48,749 nucleotides of DNA from Kiritimatiellia bacterium (lineage in GTDB: Bacteria; Verrucomicrobiota; Kiritimatiellia; RFP12; UBA1067), in assembly GCA_028700415.1 (NCBI GenBank), contig JAQVSS010000007.1:1-48749 (forward strand), in the 5' to 3' direction. Position numbers and translations under genes: made by a program. The notes under the pieces are model-generated. The model did no database searches. It was not told the origin of the DNA and saw only the letters and a list, made by a program, of their open reading frames with translations. Positions 22,629 through 31,048 of the stretch are shown piece after piece; positions within the stretch are counted from its first letter, which is position 1, and the number at the start of each line of letters is the position of its first letter.

Positions 22629-23900
22629 TCATTCGTGACGCAACGCCTCAATGGGATCAAGCTCCGCAGCCCTCATCGCCGGGTAGAGACCAAAAATGAT
22701 TCCAATACCCACGCTAATGCCGAAAGCAAGAATAAGGCTGTAAGGCTGCACCACCGTTGGCATATCCGTAAACACGGTAATCAGAAAAGGAATGGCGACA
22801 CCTAACAGGAGCCCAACGATACCACCACCGATTGACAACACACAGGTATTAATAAGAAACTGGATTACGATCCGACTCCGCCTCGCGCCGATCGCCCGAC
22901 GGATGCCGATCTCTTTGGTGCGTTCGGTCACCGAAGCCAGCATGATGTTCATGATGCCAATGCCCCCTACCAGCAGACTTATCCCTGCGATCGCACCCAA
23001 AACAATGTTGTAGGTGCGTTTTGTGCGTTCCGCTTCGCGCAACAAGGTTAGGGGCACATCGATGCGGAAATCCTTTTTTTTGTGAAACCTCGTCAACACC
23101 GCCTCAATCGCTTTGCTGCCTGCCTCAACCTTTTTTGTGTCGGCCATTTTGACGATGATTTCACTCAGTTCAACTTTCTCCCCCTCCATGCCGCCTGCAG
23201 AGTAACGGATATTTGCTTCGCCAAAAAGACGCGTTCCCGTTGTTAAGGGAATGTATGCGTCCGCCTCGCTATCTGGCGCACGCACAGCACCGCCCGTTTC
23301 ATTCTTGACAATTCCGGCCACCTCAAATACGCCCGACGCGATGCGGATATGTTGGCCAAGTATTCCCTCGGCAGCCAACAAGCGGCGCACACCATACTCG
23401 GTTAACACGCAAACATTTGAACGCATCCGCATGTCATTTGCCGTGAGCACACGTCCCGCCAACACAGGGCGCTGCACCACATCAAACCATTCGGGAACCG
23501 TCTCCACCACCCGCATTTCAAGTTGACGTTCATTCACACGCGCGTTACGCCGCGTCATACGCGCCGGCACAGTCACCACCACCCCTGGCACCGTCTCCCG
23601 AATCCTGACTTCGTCATCGTAGAGCAAGCCGTAAACGGCAAGCCTACCGCGCTGCGCCCCCGTACTCGCGCCATCCTCGCTGCTGGGTTTTACCGAGGTG
23701 ACCATGATGTTTTCACTGCCCAAACGCTTAATGGAATCCAATGCCTGCTGGCTGGCACCTTCTCCGACGGCCAACATGGCAATCACGCTCCCCACCCCAA
23801 ACACCACACCTAGCATGGTTAGAAAGGAGCGCGCCTTATGACGCCATACATCCGTCAACCCCAACTTGATAAAAGGCCAGAAATGCAGGATCTGATTCAC
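22629..23900 (-). CDS. MacB-type ABC transporter permease
   Basis: ARSFLTMLGVVFGVGSVIAMLAVGEGA, VGGIGIMNIMLASVTERTKEIGIRRAIGAR, LDPIEALRHE. Confidence 0.92.
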   Translation of the reverse strand: MNQILHFWPFIKLGLTDVWRHKARSFLTMLGVVFGVGSVIAMLAVGEGASQQALDSIKRLGSENIMVTSVKPSSEDGASTGAQRGRLAVYGLLYDDEVRIRETVPGVVVTVPARMTRRNARVNERQLEMRVVETVPEWFDVVQRPVLAGRVLTANDMRMRSNVCVLTEYGVRRLLAAEGILGQHIRIASGVFEVAGIVKNETGGAVRAPDSEADAYIPLTTGTRLFGEANIRYSAGGMEGEKVELSEIIVKMADTKKVEAGSKAIEAVLTRFHKKKDFRIDVPLTLLREAERTKRTYNIVLGAIAGISLLVGGIGIMNIMLASVTERTKEIGIRRAIGARRSRIVIQFLINTCVLSIGGGIVGLLLGVAIPFLITVFTDMPTVVQPYSLILAFGISVGIGIIFGLYPAMRAAELDPIEALRHE

Positions 23901-24616
23901 ATCACACCCTCTTTGCCCGTGATTGACAAAACGCGCCCGTCTTTCAACACGATATTTGCTTTCGCGTAGGCCGCAATGTCAGGCTCGTGCGTAACAAGAA
24001 CGACCGTTTTCCCCTGCTCGTACAATTCTTGGAACAATCCCATAATTTGTATGCTTGTTGCGCTATCCAAGTTGCCGGTTGGTTCATCGGCCAACAAAAC
24101 CGCGGGGTCGTTTGCTAATGCGCGTGCCACAGCCACCCGTTGGCGTTGCCCTCCAGAAAGTTCAGATGGCAAGTGACGCAAGCGATGAGAGATGCCCACA
24201 CGATCAGCCAGCATTTCAGCCTTACGCCTGCGCTCAGCGTGCGGAAGCCCCAAATAAAACATCGGGACCTCAATATTTTCGCTAACCGTGAGTTGTGGAA
24301 TCAGATGGAAACTTTGAAACACAAAACCAAGGTTTCTCAATCGATGGTCGCTCAACGCATTGTCATCCATTTCGGCAACATTTTTTCCATTCAACCAATA
24401 CGCTCCGGATGACGGTCTGTCGAGACACCCGAGAATATTCAACATCGTGCTTTTCCCGGAACCGCTCGGCCCCATGATCGCACAGTATGCGCCCCTGCGA
24501 ATGGAAAACGATATGCCGTCCAACGCACGCACGATTTCGTTGCCTACCGTATAATGCCTCATTACTGCATCGAATCGGACGACTTCATCGTCCAGCGGAT
24601 GCCGATTCTCTGTCAT
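23897..24616 (-). CDS. ABC transporter ATP-binding protein (LolD/MacB-type)
   Basis: GPSGSGKSTMLNILG Walker A, LSGGQRQRVAVARAL, LLADEPTGNLD; overlaps permease start. Confidence 0.94.
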   Translation of the reverse strand: MTENRHPLDDEVVRFDAVMRHYTVGNEIVRALDGISFSIRRGAYCAIMGPSGSGKSTMLNILGCLDRPSSGAYWLNGKNVAEMDDNALSDHRLRNLGFVFQSFHLIPQLTVSENIEVPMFYLGLPHAERRRKAEMLADRVGISHRLRHLPSELSGGQRQRVAVARALANDPAVLLADEPTGNLDSATSIQIMGLFQELYEQGKTVVLVTHEPDIAAYAKANIVLKDGRVLSITGKEGVM

Positions 24617-24624
24617 CTGGACAA

Positions 24625-26247
24625 TCATTCCGGATTATCACTTCCCGAACCGGGCGTCGCTTTTTTGGGACGCATCGTTTTTGGTTTTAACCCGTTGGAG
24701 GGGGTGGGGCGCGGGGTATTTGGGGACTTCACCCTGGTTTGGGATGCCCCCCCCGCAGCCGAAACGGGCTCGTTGAGTCCGCTTTTCTTCTCTTTCATCG
24801 GAGGTGCCAGAAGCACCTCTTCGCCGGTCCGAACACCCTCGAGGATATGAATCATACGGTTATTGTCCAGCCCCACGCGAACAATCCGCGGCACCCACTC
24901 GCCGTCATCGTTTACATAGACGCGCGGAACACCGTCCACACGCACGACGCATTGCACCGGCACGTAGAGCGCCTTGTCGTAAGATTCCTTGACCAACTCG
25001 ACATCGCAACTCATACCCGGGCGGATAACCACATCTTTGAAATCACATTCGATTTCACACTTGTAAAGTTTCAGATCTGGATTCAACTGCGAACTCTGCC
25101 CATCCGGAAGAATACCGATCTTCACAAGGCGTCCGTCAAATACACGGCCAGGGAAAGCGTCAATTTTAATCCGGGCAGGCATTCCGTTGTCGATTTTATT
25201 GAGGCTGGCCTCAGGGATCATCACCTCGACTACCATTCCTGACTCGATCGGGATATAGATCAGCTCTTGGCGCTCAACAGCGGTGGAACCCACCGCCAGC
25301 GGCTTGATCCACCATTGCCGACGCGAAATCAATACAGTTGAGGTATACAGCACAATTCCGTTTGTCGGCGCGTAAATCTTACTTTTTGAAATTTGGAAGT
25401 TTAACTCTTCCAAACGGTTGGTGGCACGTGTGCGTTCGCGCAGTCTCGCCCGCAATTCCGACTCGACCTGCCGCAACGCAGATTTATTTTGCCACTTTGT
25501 ACGAACCAGAGCACGCTCCGCTTTACGAAGCGAACTTTCGAGCGTCGAACGCTGCTGCAAGAGCGTATAATTCGTCAACACATTCATGCGTGTCCGTGAC
25601 ATTTCAAGATCGAGTTGCTTACGCTGCAAGGCCAACTCATCCGCCTGCAGTTCGGTTCGGGTCAAAAAGCTTTCTTTTGCCAATCGCTGCGACCACTCTA
25701 AACGCTCGGAGGCACGTTTCAACTCTTCGTTGGCCAACGCAATATCCGCCTCGTACTGACGCACTTGTTGGGGATAGTCGCCCTCCTGATATTTCTCAAG
25801 CGCCATTTTTGCCAGCATGAGATCAACCTCACGATCCAGCAGCGCCGCTTCACAATCACCCTCTGTGACATTCAATTTTTCTTGGGCGATCACTAGGCTG
25901 GTGTCGGCATTGGCGACAGTAATCTCCTGCTCATTACGTTTATCAACTAAATCGCTGGCATCGAATTCAAGCAACAGGTCACCGCCCTGCACATTGGTTC
26001 CTTCGTCGATGACCCAGATCACCGTGTTATTACCCTCCAACTCGCTGTTGATAATAACCTTATCACGACTCTGAATGGAGCCGCCAGACGTAACGGCAAT
26101 CGTCAACGGCCCCTCTTGCACCGTAAAAACCGGCATGGGCTCGCTCGGTTTTCCGCTGCCCCGTGTCAATAGCCACGCGATGAACACCATTGCGCTCACG
26201 ATGCAGGCGATGATCGTTTTCTTTTTTAATAACCGCTTGTTATCCAT
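24625..26247 (-). CDS. HlyD/MacA-type periplasmic adaptor
   Basis: N-terminal TM, biotinyl-lipoyl-like halves, long coiled-coil, IYAPTNGIVLY; operonic with ATPase. Confidence 0.88.
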   Translation of the reverse strand: MDNKRLLKKKTIIACIVSAMVFIAWLLTRGSGKPSEPMPVFTVQEGPLTIAVTSGGSIQSRDKVIINSELEGNNTVIWVIDEGTNVQGGDLLLEFDASDLVDKRNEQEITVANADTSLVIAQEKLNVTEGDCEAALLDREVDLMLAKMALEKYQEGDYPQQVRQYEADIALANEELKRASERLEWSQRLAKESFLTRTELQADELALQRKQLDLEMSRTRMNVLTNYTLLQQRSTLESSLRKAERALVRTKWQNKSALRQVESELRARLRERTRATNRLEELNFQISKSKIYAPTNGIVLYTSTVLISRRQWWIKPLAVGSTAVERQELIYIPIESGMVVEVMIPEASLNKIDNGMPARIKIDAFPGRVFDGRLVKIGILPDGQSSQLNPDLKLYKCEIECDFKDVVIRPGMSCDVELVKESYDKALYVPVQCVVRVDGVPRVYVNDDGEWVPRIVRVGLDNNRMIHILEGVRTGEEVLLAPPMKEKKSGLNEPVSAAGGASQTRVKSPNTPRPTPSNGLKPKTMRPKKATPGSGSDNPE

Positions 26248-27970
26248 TACTTTCCCCGTTCATATCGCACCACATGCCTGTTTCCGAAATCTCAAGAACC
26301 CCCATATCGCGGCGCAGTTCCAAGTCGCTCAAATGCCATTGAATGACTGCGGAGCAGAGCGCATTACGGGCACTCAGCATCGCACTTTCCGCTTCAAGAA
26401 TGTCGCGCATCGATGAGCGCCCGGACTGCAAAAAAAGATTGTTGCTGTCTACGCGCAGTTTTGCCACTTTCATAATTTCGATTTGATTCTCGTAAGACGC
26501 GCGGGCAGAGATAAGGTTGCGGAACCCGCTCCGCACCGCCTGTTTGATCATGTCTTCCTTTTCTTCCAACGCCCGCTTAGCCTGTTCGAACGCAATCAGA
26601 TGTTTTCTGAATGCGTTCCGCTCTTTGCGCCGGTCCCATGGCAGAGAGAGCTGTACCCCCCCGGTTAATGCTTCTCCGCCGTCGAAACCGTTCCCACCCG
26701 TCTCACGCATACGATCCATGCTTGCCCCCCCCATGAGGGTCACATCTGCCCGCAGCGCATCTGCCGCAATTTTTATGGCACGCGCAGCATCTTCAAGTCC
26801 ACAGCGTGTAATAAAAAGATCACATCGTTTTGACAATGCGATCCGGCACGCTTCGTTCTCGTCAGGAAACAACTCGACAGCGCTTTTGCTTGTCTTGGCA
26901 AAACGATCCATTTCCGCCGCTAACCGGTTCAGTTCGCCTGCGTCCAACACAATGTTCGATTCAGGAGGCAATCCGATCTTGATCTTGAAGGCATCGAGTT
27001 TTGTCTCGTAACTTTTACGGGTGTTAATCACACTCTCGCCCGCCCCCAGCAAGTCGGAACGAGCTTGGTCGACTTGTATCCGCTCCATCCGTCCCGCATC
27101 AAACATCATTTCAGCACGCCGGCTGTTGTCGGCCAGCCTGCGTTCGTTGTCTAATGCATTTTTTAACCGCTGCACATATTCCAAGACGTCAAAATAGGCG
27201 GTCGCGACAGAAACCGCATAGGTCTGCCGATAATATTCAAACGTCTGAATGGCATAGCTAAGGTCACGCTCCGCTTGCGTAAGCGGCTCGCGTACGATTT
27301 CACGTCCCGCCCCCCGCATCAGGGGTAATGTCATCGTCAGATCGCCCGTAACCCCTAATGAGCGCCAGTCATCGCGCAAAAGGCTCACCACATCCAGAGC
27401 CAAATTCCCGGCTATTCCTAAACCGTTCTCCATCTTTCGGTCAAATCCCGCCGCCGATTTTCCCGTCGCCTTTTCAATTCCCGGGTCACCTGAAAGCAGG
27501 GCCAGCAATATGCCGCTGAAGGAAGTTTCAAATTGATACTGCTGATAGTCCAAATCCAATGCGGTCGAAAAGACAGTCTCTTTCAACTTCTGATATTGCC
27601 GATCATTCCGTGCCGCCACACAAAGCGCATCGGTCAACGAGAACGTAAGCACACCGTTCGAGACGACCAGATTTCCTGCACGCGGGATCTCCGGAAATAC
27701 AACGTTTTGCTCGCCACGCGCAGCCGCCAAAAGCGCAATCCTCAACGTCAGCGCATCCGCTGGCCGATGGGCATCAAAAGAGTTGGTGTACCCCGTCTGT
27801 TGTTGCCAGAAATCAGTTGCCAGTCGAATCCCCGTCTCATCGCATTCTTGAACCGCTTTGTCCGGTGTCATACACGCCACGGGCACAAGCAGACACCACA
27901 CGAACATGATACCCCATGCGGCGCCGTGCCAGATCATCCCGATTCTTAAGCTATTCCCCGCTTTCACCAT
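26240..27970 (-). CDS. TolC-family outer-membrane efflux protein
   Basis: Signal/lipoprotein N-terminus, TolC-like repeats (AYFDVLEYVQRLKNALDNERRLADNSRRAEMMFDAGRMERIQVDQARSDLL); overlaps adaptor by 8 nt. Confidence 0.85.
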   Translation of the reverse strand: MVKAGNSLRIGMIWHGAAWGIMFVWCLLVPVACMTPDKAVQECDETGIRLATDFWQQQTGYTNSFDAHRPADALTLRIALLAAARGEQNVVFPEIPRAGNLVVSNGVLTFSLTDALCVAARNDRQYQKLKETVFSTALDLDYQQYQFETSFSGILLALLSGDPGIEKATGKSAAGFDRKMENGLGIAGNLALDVVSLLRDDWRSLGVTGDLTMTLPLMRGAGREIVREPLTQAERDLSYAIQTFEYYRQTYAVSVATAYFDVLEYVQRLKNALDNERRLADNSRRAEMMFDAGRMERIQVDQARSDLLGAGESVINTRKSYETKLDAFKIKIGLPPESNIVLDAGELNRLAAEMDRFAKTSKSAVELFPDENEACRIALSKRCDLFITRCGLEDAARAIKIAADALRADVTLMGGASMDRMRETGGNGFDGGEALTGGVQLSLPWDRRKERNAFRKHLIAFEQAKRALEEKEDMIKQAVRSGFRNLISARASYENQIEIMKVAKLRVDSNNLFLQSGRSSMRDILEAESAMLSARNALCSAVIQWHLSDLELRRDMGVLEISETGMWCDMNGESNG

Positions 27971-28070: not shown

Positions 28071-29144
28071 TCAAACCGCCTGTTTGGCTCGATACGACTC
28101 AACCTCCCAATTTTCGATGAAAAGGCGCGACACATCCGACAAATAGCAAAGCCCCCCAAACGCATATGCCAATTGTTTGACTAGCGCACCGTCCAATGCC
28201 AATTCCAAAGCCAACCGTGCGGTCTTTGTGTTCGTACCCACACCTAGGACTGCATTTTCAGTCACAATCACGCGTGGCGTATAACCCCGTGCCGACACAA
28301 ACGCCAATAATTCCCCAACAGACACACCCCCCTCATACGCATATGATTTCGCATACACGATGTGATCCGGAGAGATGGGCCCATTACCGACCTCGAAACG
28401 GCCTGACACGGCAACCGCCGCCGCATGCTCACCCAACGCTTCAGACAACACCTGCCGCCACCCCCTGACTTGGGCATCGGAAGGCGACTCGCACACGCAC
28501 ACCTCAGCCGCGACGCCACATGTGCGATATGCCTTTTTTAATGTATCAAAGACCCGGGTATATGTACCGCGGATTTCCGCCTCGGTGTCCCCCGAAACAA
28601 AAACCCCATGGTTTTGGAGGAAAATCAGCCTCGGTTCCACACCGTGTGCGGCTTTGTACGTGTGAATGGATCGGCGGACCGACATGCACAACATGTACCC
28701 CGGGTCGATATAGGGCACCCATAACGCATCTGGAAAAAGTCTGGCAACCGCTGCACGTCCGTCCGCCGCGCACGTCATCCCGTTGACAATCGGCGGATGG
28801 GTGTGCACGACGTATCGAGCGGAAAGTGAATCATGCAAGGGAGCCTCCACGGACGGGCGCCCCGATGTCCCCGCTTTAACCGCTGAGGCCATTATATTTT
28901 TGACCAACGCTTCACGGTCAGCAGAGTCGACAGGAGTTACTGCCTCATAAAGACGCGACAACTCCGTCCGGTCCATCATCACAAACGTCTCCGGCTTTAG
29001 CCCTGCAAGCGTCGTTCCGGAAGGCTTGATCCACAGCGTCTCGGCATCTTTACAGGACGTATTGCCGCCACCCGCTTTGACATATTCTGCGGTGCCATAC
29101 GCGTGTGATAACTTTGATATGGTTTTCAGCATATCCATGCACAT
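28071..29144 (-). CDS. Class II aldolase/adducin-family protein (rhamnulose/fuculose-phosphate aldolase-like)
   Basis: KAGGGNTSCKD...LWIKPSGTTL, VVHTHPPIVNGM zinc site, LQNHGVFVSG; real start may be 29132 or 29138. Confidence 0.85.
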   Translation of the reverse strand: MCMDMLKTISKLSHAYGTAEYVKAGGGNTSCKDAETLWIKPSGTTLAGLKPETFVMMDRTELSRLYEAVTPVDSADREALVKNIMASAVKAGTSGRPSVEAPLHDSLSARYVVHTHPPIVNGMTCAADGRAAVARLFPDALWVPYIDPGYMLCMSVRRSIHTYKAAHGVEPRLIFLQNHGVFVSGDTEAEIRGTYTRVFDTLKKAYRTCGVAAEVCVCESPSDAQVRGWRQVLSEALGEHAAAVAVSGRFEVGNGPISPDHIVYAKSYAYEGGVSVGELLAFVSARGYTPRVIVTENAVLGVGTNTKTARLALELALDGALVKQLAYAFGGLCYLSDVSRLFIENWEVESYRAKQAV

Positions 29145-29362
29145 GCTACCTGCTCACTTTTTGTCCCGTGAGCCGCCGGGATGGGCGAAATTAAAACAAC
29201 GAGTTGCGGGTTCCACACACTGTTAACGTTTCGCCAAAGCGTTCGCCTCATCGTTTTGACTTCCGAAAGCCAGTCGATGTCAAACGGCGCATCTTCGGCG
29301 GCACAGAATTTGTCCCATACCGCCCCCCTGGACTCCCCCGCAAAAAACGCTATTAATTTACA
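29126..29362 (-). pseudogene. rhaA (remnant): Remnant of L-rhamnose isomerase C-terminus (no start codon, N-terminal >90% missing)
   Basis: Minus frame opened after TAG at 29363-29365: CKLIAFFAGESRGAVWDKFCAAEDAPFDIDWLSEVKTMRRTLWRNVNS...; AVW-[DE]-x-[FY]-C-x3-D-x-P-x3-[DE]-WL-x2-V-[KR] matches the RhaA C-terminus as recalled; homologous part about 29228-29323. Confidence 0.65.
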
Positions 29363-29398
29363 CTAACTGAACCGGTCGTTCCAGCCGATTTTAAGCAA

Positions 29399-30379
29399 TC
29401 ATCCGCCGAAAATCTCACGATACTGCGGTGCCCAGTACGAGATCAACAGGTCGGCACCGGCCCGGTCAAGTGACATCAGCGTTTCGTGGACCATATCAAT
29501 CAGATTTCCCCATCCGCGTTCCGCAGCGGCAATCAGCATACTGTATTCGCCACTGACATTGTAGGCGGCGATAGGCAGTTCAGTGCGCTCACGCATTTTG
29601 GCCAACACGTCCAGATAAAAAAGTGCGGGCTTGACCATCAGAATGTCAGCCCCTTCCTCTTCGTCGAAATCCGACTCGCGCAATGCCGCGCGCAGATTTC
29701 GATACGACGCTTGGTAACCTTTGCGGTCCCCCGCCGATGGTGTGGAGTTTTCCGCATCACGGAACGGTCCGTACATTGACGAGGCGAACTTGGTCGAATA
29801 TGACATCAGCAAGGTTTTTTCAAAAGCGTTCTCGTTCAGCGACACACGAATCGCCGTCACCTGTCCGTCCATCATTGCACTTGGGGCCACCACATCTGCA
29901 CCCGCGGCCGCATGGGACACCGCAACTCGTGCCAATAGCTCGACCGCCGCATCGTTATCGACCTGTCCCAGCCGGTCTAGCGGGCCACAGTGCCCGTGCG
30001 CCGTATAGGCACAAAGGTAGACGTCGGTCATCACCACCAATTCAGGAAACGCACGCTTAATGGCGGGAACCGCACGCTGCACAATACCGCATTCGTCATA
30101 CGCGCCGCTGCCGGCCGCGTCTTTCCCACTCTCCGCCTGTCCAAACAAAAGCACGCCACCAACCCCCTGGGCCGCGACAGGTTCAAGTGCCCGCAACAAC
30201 ATGTCGACGCTGAGTCGGTTCTGCCCCGGCATGGACATGATTGGTTCACACCGTTTTTCCCCTTCGACCACAAACACAGGCCAGATGAGTTTCGACGCCG
30301 GAGGTGCCGGAGCATCAAACAACCGGCGTATGGCCGGCGCGCGCCGTAACCGGCGTAAACGTATATCTGGAAAACGCAT
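29399..30379 (-). CDS. hemB: Delta-aminolevulinic acid dehydratase (porphobilinogen synthase)
   Basis: LIWPVFVVEG, VVMTDVYLCAYTAHGHCG, VAPSAMMDGQVTAIR, DILMVKPALFYLDV, AAYNVSGEYSM; RBS GAGG upstream of ATG 30379. Confidence 0.95.
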   Translation of the reverse strand: MRFPDIRLRRLRRAPAIRRLFDAPAPPASKLIWPVFVVEGEKRCEPIMSMPGQNRLSVDMLLRALEPVAAQGVGGVLLFGQAESGKDAAGSGAYDECGIVQRAVPAIKRAFPELVVMTDVYLCAYTAHGHCGPLDRLGQVDNDAAVELLARVAVSHAAAGADVVAPSAMMDGQVTAIRVSLNENAFEKTLLMSYSTKFASSMYGPFRDAENSTPSAGDRKGYQASYRNLRAALRESDFDEEEGADILMVKPALFYLDVLAKMRERTELPIAAYNVSGEYSMLIAAAERGWGNLIDMVHETLMSLDRAGADLLISYWAPQYREIFGG

Positions 30380-30387
30380 ATGAGACC

Positions 30388-31017
30388 TCAATCGGGGATG
30401 AAGAGAATCTGTCCGACACGGATCGTCGAAGGGTTTGTAATCTTGTTGGCCTTCAAGATCACATCCATGCTTTTGCCATAACCCCGGGCAATCTCGGAAA
30501 GAGTTTGTCCCCTCTCAACCTTGTGCTCATATCCGGAGACCGACCGTGCGCCGACAGACGCTTTCCCTGCATTTGACGCACGCCCTGTAACCGGCGATGC
30601 CGCGGCAGCGTTTCTTGCCGCATTGATATCCGCCTGTTGTCGTGCGGCGATCTTTTCGATGCGTACCGCCAAATCGTCCGTGATCTCTTTTTTCAGGGAT
30701 TCACGCTCCGCACGGAGAAGTTGCATATCCCGGCGCAACGCGATGATGTCATCCTGAGTCTGCGGTGTAGTGCCTGCCTGGGTTTCGAATCGCGACATCC
30801 GTGTCTCAAATGACTCCTGATTGCGGTTCAACGCCGCCACCTGCTCACTCAACTGGCGGATTTCCACACTCATTTGCTGCGCGTTGGTCAACATGCCCGC
30901 CACAGCGGGATTCTGCCGCGATGGTTGCTCGAAGATGGTTCCCTCAAACATCGGGCCCGCACAGCCCGCACCCAAATGAACAACCGCTAACATGAATACC
31001 GTTCTCATTGTTTTCAT
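30388..31017 (-). CDS. Coiled-coil LysM-domain lipoprotein
   Basis: Lipoprotein signal MKTMRTVFMLAVVHLGAGC; C-terminal LysM (YEHKVERGQTLSEIARGYGKSMDVILKANKITNPSTIRVGQILFIPD); RBS GGGGAGAGG before ATG 31017. Confidence 0.85.
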   Translation of the reverse strand: MKTMRTVFMLAVVHLGAGCAGPMFEGTIFEQPSRQNPAVAGMLTNAQQMSVEIRQLSEQVAALNRNQESFETRMSRFETQAGTTPQTQDDIIALRRDMQLLRAERESLKKEITDDLAVRIEKIAARQQADINAARNAAAASPVTGRASNAGKASVGARSVSGYEHKVERGQTLSEIARGYGKSMDVILKANKITNPSTIRVGQILFIPD

Positions 31018-31048
31018 GTCTACCTCTCCCCTTGCTCCTCCGGTCATG

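Follow-up and report, generated by a model that had tools for sequence, protein, structure and literature searches.

Gene content of the locus

On the minus strand of the window, that is, the whole 48,749-nucleotide stretch analysed here (positions 1-48749; G000:C83), a gene for a LysM protein and hemB precede a gap, a class II aldolase gene and a set of efflux genes (Table 1). The contig is part of a metagenome bin, hereafter referred to as the bin. Within the gap, the minus-strand frame 29362-29126 is open from stop to stop over 78 amino acids, and no start codon precedes the part that matches L-rhamnose isomerase (RhaA); in this respect the initial annotation, which had described a stop-free frame lacking a start, quoted the sequence as it reads. 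The aldolase open reading frame is listed from the ATG at 29144 (MCMDML...), and the ATG at 29138 (MDML...) is the start conserved in relatives, which probably makes it, and not 29144, the start of the gene.

Table 1. Features of the hemB-aldolase region in the window
Feature	Position	Strand	Remarks
TolC-like, HlyD-like, ABC and MacB-like genes	22629..27970	minus	downstream; gene order shared with G011 and further relatives
Class II aldolase, 355 aa	28071..29138	minus	orthologue of the aldolase 3' of rhaA in relatives
Probable aldolase ribosome-binding site GAGCAGG	29149..29155	minus	assigned by eye
rhaA 3' relic	29223..29326	minus	codons 387-420 and native TAA stop, one base missing; GAVWDKFCAAEDAPFDIDWLSEVKT, frameshift, EANALAKR-stop
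One-base deletion site in relic	29250..29251	minus	Tyr codon cut to AT
Junction zone	29327..29358	minus	zone in which the shortened leader of rhaA meets its codon 387
Promoter-like block CTGGAA-N16-TGTA	29359..29384	minus	conserved upstream of rhaA in G011, G025, G020, G002 and G032; retained in window
hemB (porphobilinogen synthase)	29399..30361	minus	upstream flank of deletion
LysM protein	30388..31047	minus	upstream of hemB; conserved neighbour

Identification of a rhaA remnant

When the 78-residue frame was searched against family collections, RhaA (PF06134) was the top Pfam family (E = 0.0016, profile positions 384-411 of 417), rhaA was the top NCBIfam match (E = 0.0013) and an L-rhamnose isomerase was the top match in the PDB. 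In the reverse direction, the RhaA of the closest relative, G011, retrieved the same stretch from the whole bin with E = 1.1e-5, and tblastn with the RhaA proteins of three relatives against the window gave values of 5e-8 to 3e-7 at this site, the next-best matches being 0.4 or worse. The DNA of the relic aligned with the tail of G011 rhaA over 105 columns with one gap, both sequences ending at the same TAA, and the alignment scored 71 versus 38 for the best of 500 shuffles. Judged by these matches, the gap between hemB and the aldolase gene contains a 3' remnant of rhaA, and the profile and tblastn searches thereby bear out the earlier proposal of a RhaA C-terminal relic.

The frame that had been quoted as the RhaA tail follows RhaA over part of its length. 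From 29326 to 29252 it reads GAVWDKFCAAEDAPFDIDWLSEVKT, ending in EVKT, and this segment corresponds to RhaA; beyond it one base is gone, and the neighbouring frame continues with EANALAKR up to the TAA at 29223, where the relatives have YEANVLAKR-stop. From MRRTLWRN... onwards, the quoted peptide is read out of frame and is noise. In comparison with the RhaA C-terminus of ten relatives, 23-26 of 35 positions were identical (the stop being counted and one position lost to the frameshift), and three of the 17 positions invariant in these relatives were altered. The C-terminal signature of RhaA (PF06134, TIGR01748) is present in the relic, which fits the end of the profile and runs to the native stop after the one-base gap; in contrast to a full-length RhaA of about 420 codons, however, it lacks codons 1-386 with the catalytic barrel, only codons 387-420 being left in the window, and it is not an enzyme. 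Its lesions as a pseudogene are the absent start codon, the 386 codons gone and the one-base frameshift, although the missing base could be an error in the assembly of a metagenome bin.

Relative to the rhaA genes of the relatives, 63% of the substitutions in the relic are found at third codon positions. Since the differences are mostly of this kind, most of the divergence would predate the loss of rhaA, and the deletion appears to be recent compared with the divergence from G011. No relatives closer than G011, which could have served to date it, were found.

Ancestral gene order and in-place deletion

In G011, the gene row is LysM-hemB-rhaA-aldolase-TolC-HlyD-ABC-MacB, and in the window it is LysM-hemB-relic-aldolase-TolC-HlyD-ABC-MacB in the same orientation. 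The closest orthologues of the aldolase in the genome_contigs collection (61-75% identity) have rhaA directly upstream and on the same strand in 11 out of 11 loci, with an intact rhaA at the same place as the relic, as hemB-rhaA-aldolase in G011 and as rhaA-aldolase in ten more loci. The bins that contain these loci are metagenomic and have labels such as Kiritimatiellae, Verrucomicrobia and Lentisphaerae, and one of the contigs begins inside rhaA. In these relatives, the stretch kept as the relic was found only within full-length RhaA. The rhaA-aldolase pairs of ten Kiritimatiellae relatives (G011, G025, G020, G002, G003, G008, G014, G016, G023 and G032) share order and strand with the window, and mostly the downstream efflux genes as well, but in the window rhaA is only a tail whose leader hairpin and ribosome-binding site are lost.

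The distance between the hemB stop and codon 387 of rhaA is 1324 in G011 versus 75 in the window; with the G011 spacing taken as ancestral, about 1.25 kb would have been lost. Missing from the window are the gene-proximal part of the rhaA leader, the rhaA ribosome-binding site and codons 1-386; the final 34 codons of rhaA are kept together with its stop. A single in-place deletion of about 1.25 kb would have removed the L-rhamnose isomerase in this way. The colinear rows agree with two suggestions of the initial annotation, namely an ancestral isomerase-aldolase pair and a deletion that brought the end of rhaA next to hemB. At the breakpoint, the leader and the rhaA tail have a short G-rich similarity (11/15 by eye with the G011 sequence), for which micro-homology is not claimed.

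The TolC-HlyD-ABC-MacB efflux set is located 3' of rhaA-aldolase in many relatives (L054, L056, L059 and L103), as it is 3' of the aldolase at 22629-27970 in the window. This partnership of sugar catabolism and export is odd, yet conserved.

Upstream region and expression of the aldolase gene

The block conserved in front of rhaA in the relatives consists in full of CTGGAA, about 16 bases, TGTA and then TTTAAAG. The CTGGAA-TGTA part is kept in the window, where this is its sole occurrence. In G025 and others, the upstream neighbours of rhaA differ and the block is still present. A strict scan for the sigma-70 consensus failed to recover it, and we infer a promoter-like nature from its conservation only. 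A general promoter role was rejected, as 439 kb sampled from the bin contained 2 occurrences of the block versus 1.2 expected, which is no enrichment, and it was not seen in such form before the kinase or fucI genes. On both grounds, it was treated as belonging to rhaA.

Because the block survives at 29384-29359, the aldolase gene probably keeps rhaA's own promoter. It would be read from this promoter, about 220 bp upstream of the aldolase start, with the relic acting as an untranslated leader, and read-through from hemB might add to its expression, as was possible before the deletion. In the initial annotation, the deletion had been proposed to place the aldolase newly under the LysM-hemB operon; on this reading, read-through could now be its only source of expression. 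In line with this, hemB, the relic and the aldolase gene lie on the same strand and no terminator was found from hemB to the relic, the single terminator-like site of the gap being located after the relic. However, hemB is already upstream of rhaA-aldolase in G011, an adjacency older than the deletion, and the conserved promoter-like block is retained. These data do not support a newly acquired hemB control, and expression exclusively by read-through seems to us rather unlikely.

Just 5' of the rhaA ribosome-binding site, at about -50 to -20 before the ATG, a hairpin GTTTCCG...CGGAAAC is conserved in seven genomes (L029, L035, L034, L028, L031, L033 and L036), among which G-U replacements and some paired changes are found. 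This hairpin is deleted in the window. Neither the window nor the rhaA leaders gave a match to an Rfam family, the only hits being tRNAs near two rhaA loci.

Conservation of the class II aldolase

The aldolase matched Aldolase_II (PF00596) with E = 1.8e-17; its frame is open over the full length, and the motifs SVEAPLH, HTHP and NHG are kept. Aligned to PDB 3m4r, it contains the zinc histidines and the catalytic glutamate of class II aldolases, roles that we assume for these residues from general knowledge of FucA and RhaD. By these motifs and by sequence-based fold family it resembles RhaD/FucA-type class II aldolases as well as the aldolase half of PRK08324 proteins but, at 355 residues, it is without the dehydrogenase half of the latter. 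Assignment as a bifunctional rhamnulose-1-phosphate aldolase/dehydrogenase (TIGR02632, RhaD_aldol-ADH) was discarded, since the match comprised the aldolase domain only and reached 73 bits versus an equivalog cut-off of 568.

The dN/dS value was 0.117 between the aldolase genes of the window and G011 versus 0.119 for G011-G025, and on this measure (about 0.12) the aldolase is under purifying selection. Measured against outgroups and relative to G011, its rate was about 1.4x and that of hemB of the same contig about 1.35x; given the similar rise in hemB, there is no sign of a relaxation specific to the aldolase. It could be argued that the aldolase itself has been decaying ever since rhaA was lost and is without a present function, as it deviates at 19 of the 177 positions at which the relatives are invariant, more often than any relative tested. 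The full-length frame with its three motifs, the low dN/dS and the similarly faster hemB speak against such decay, which we consider improbable.

Composition of the bin and reliability of the assembly

The bin comprises 548 contigs and is 87% complete. The window contig has a GC content of 0.554 versus a bin mean of 0.607, and its tetranucleotide profile shows a low correlation with the bin. On the other side, hemB, cysS and ispG are present in the bin as single copies, all of them on the window contig, which argues that the contig belongs to the bin. The hemB and aldolase genes of this contig evolve faster than those of G011, while the kinase and fucI genes of the bin, located on other contigs, do not.

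With G011 RhaA as query, no convincing second RhaA was obtained from the bin up to E = 10 (one 25% match, E = 0.4), nor was Pfam RhaA found elsewhere in it; the absence of a functional copy, which the initial annotation had proposed to check, thus refers to a bin 87% complete whose window contig is compositionally atypical. For these two reasons, the absence of rhaA elsewhere and the presence of fucI are less secure, and the local deletion is better assured than a loss of rhaA from the entire genome. If the contig were foreign to the bin, the local deletion would stand and the whole-genome statements would fall.

Since the contig comes from a fragmented metagenome bin, an assembler might have collapsed or skipped about 1.25 kb of an intact rhaA. 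However, both flanks are colinear with G011, the relic is diverged and frameshifted in a way that a simple collapse would not produce, and the bin contains no other rhaA fragment, though an assembly break would leave one. Colinear flanks together with a decayed tail argue against misassembly, to which we give very little credence. Least credible of all is a genuine short gene or leader peptide conserved in its own right, since the third-position pattern, which points to coding for most of the history of the stretch, is explained by its time within rhaA, and the stretch has no start codon, is broken in frame at 29251-29250, has lost invariant positions and is carried by the relatives solely inside full-length RhaA.

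Deoxy-sugar pathway genes and probable role of the aldolase

An intact L-fucose isomerase gene (fucI) and an intact FGGY kinase gene of the rhamnulokinase kind are present in the bin, and both are found in most relatives too. Of the 13 genomes compared, 8 have RhaM, and it was not detected in the bin. A rhamnose isomerase of the rhizobial/Gram-positive type was rejected as a replacement, since the search gave only weak matches within the TIM-barrel isomerase superfamily that fell well short of the cut-off.

For the aldolase Cphy_1177 of Clostridium phytofermentans, activity on fuculose-phosphate as well as on rhamnulose-phosphate has been proposed (PMC3557285). Both L-fucose and L-rhamnose support growth of Kiritimatiellae isolates (PMC7356697). 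The present case is similar to that of Cphy_1177 in that one aldolase is proposed for both sugars with separate isomerases and kinases, but Cphy_1177 lies in a microcompartment locus, whereas no microcompartment shell gene was found in 13 genomes (the bin and 12 relatives), and such a context was rejected.

A putative activity of the aldolase on rhamnulose- or fuculose-1-phosphate is suggested by the neighbouring rhaA of the relatives and by the gene content. After the deletion, it would serve another deoxy-sugar route, the likeliest being L-fucose utilisation through FucI and the shared FGGY kinase. On account of the fucI and kinase genes, the proposal for Cphy_1177 and the growth of isolates on both sugars, the likeliest outcome appears to be that rhamnose entry was lost and that the aldolase has been retained for L-fucose. 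A further idea, which we put forward tentatively and with more doubt than confidence, is that the deletion, by sparing the promoter, turned an aldolase of a rhamnose operon into a fucose-dedicated one whose 5' untranslated region is formed by the relic. If true, the deletion would have rewired regulation on a small scale and would not be plain gene loss.

Discussion

A rhaA relic generated by an in-place deletion, with the aldolase probably read from the retained rhaA promoter and used for L-fucose, is the overall best explanation for the locus, and we hold it with high confidence. The case is one of ordinary gene decay in an uncultured Kiritimatiellae-type bacterium, unusually clean and well documented, and the rhaA relic changes no general view. 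A 104-bp remnant that had carried no annotation preserves the trace of a lost sugar pathway, and the closest relative still has the ancestral gene row. With the remnant identified, the gap can be annotated correctly. For the organism, the predicted phenotype is no growth on L-rhamnose and perhaps growth on L-fucose, and the family of 355-residue aldolases may not be tied to rhamnose alone.
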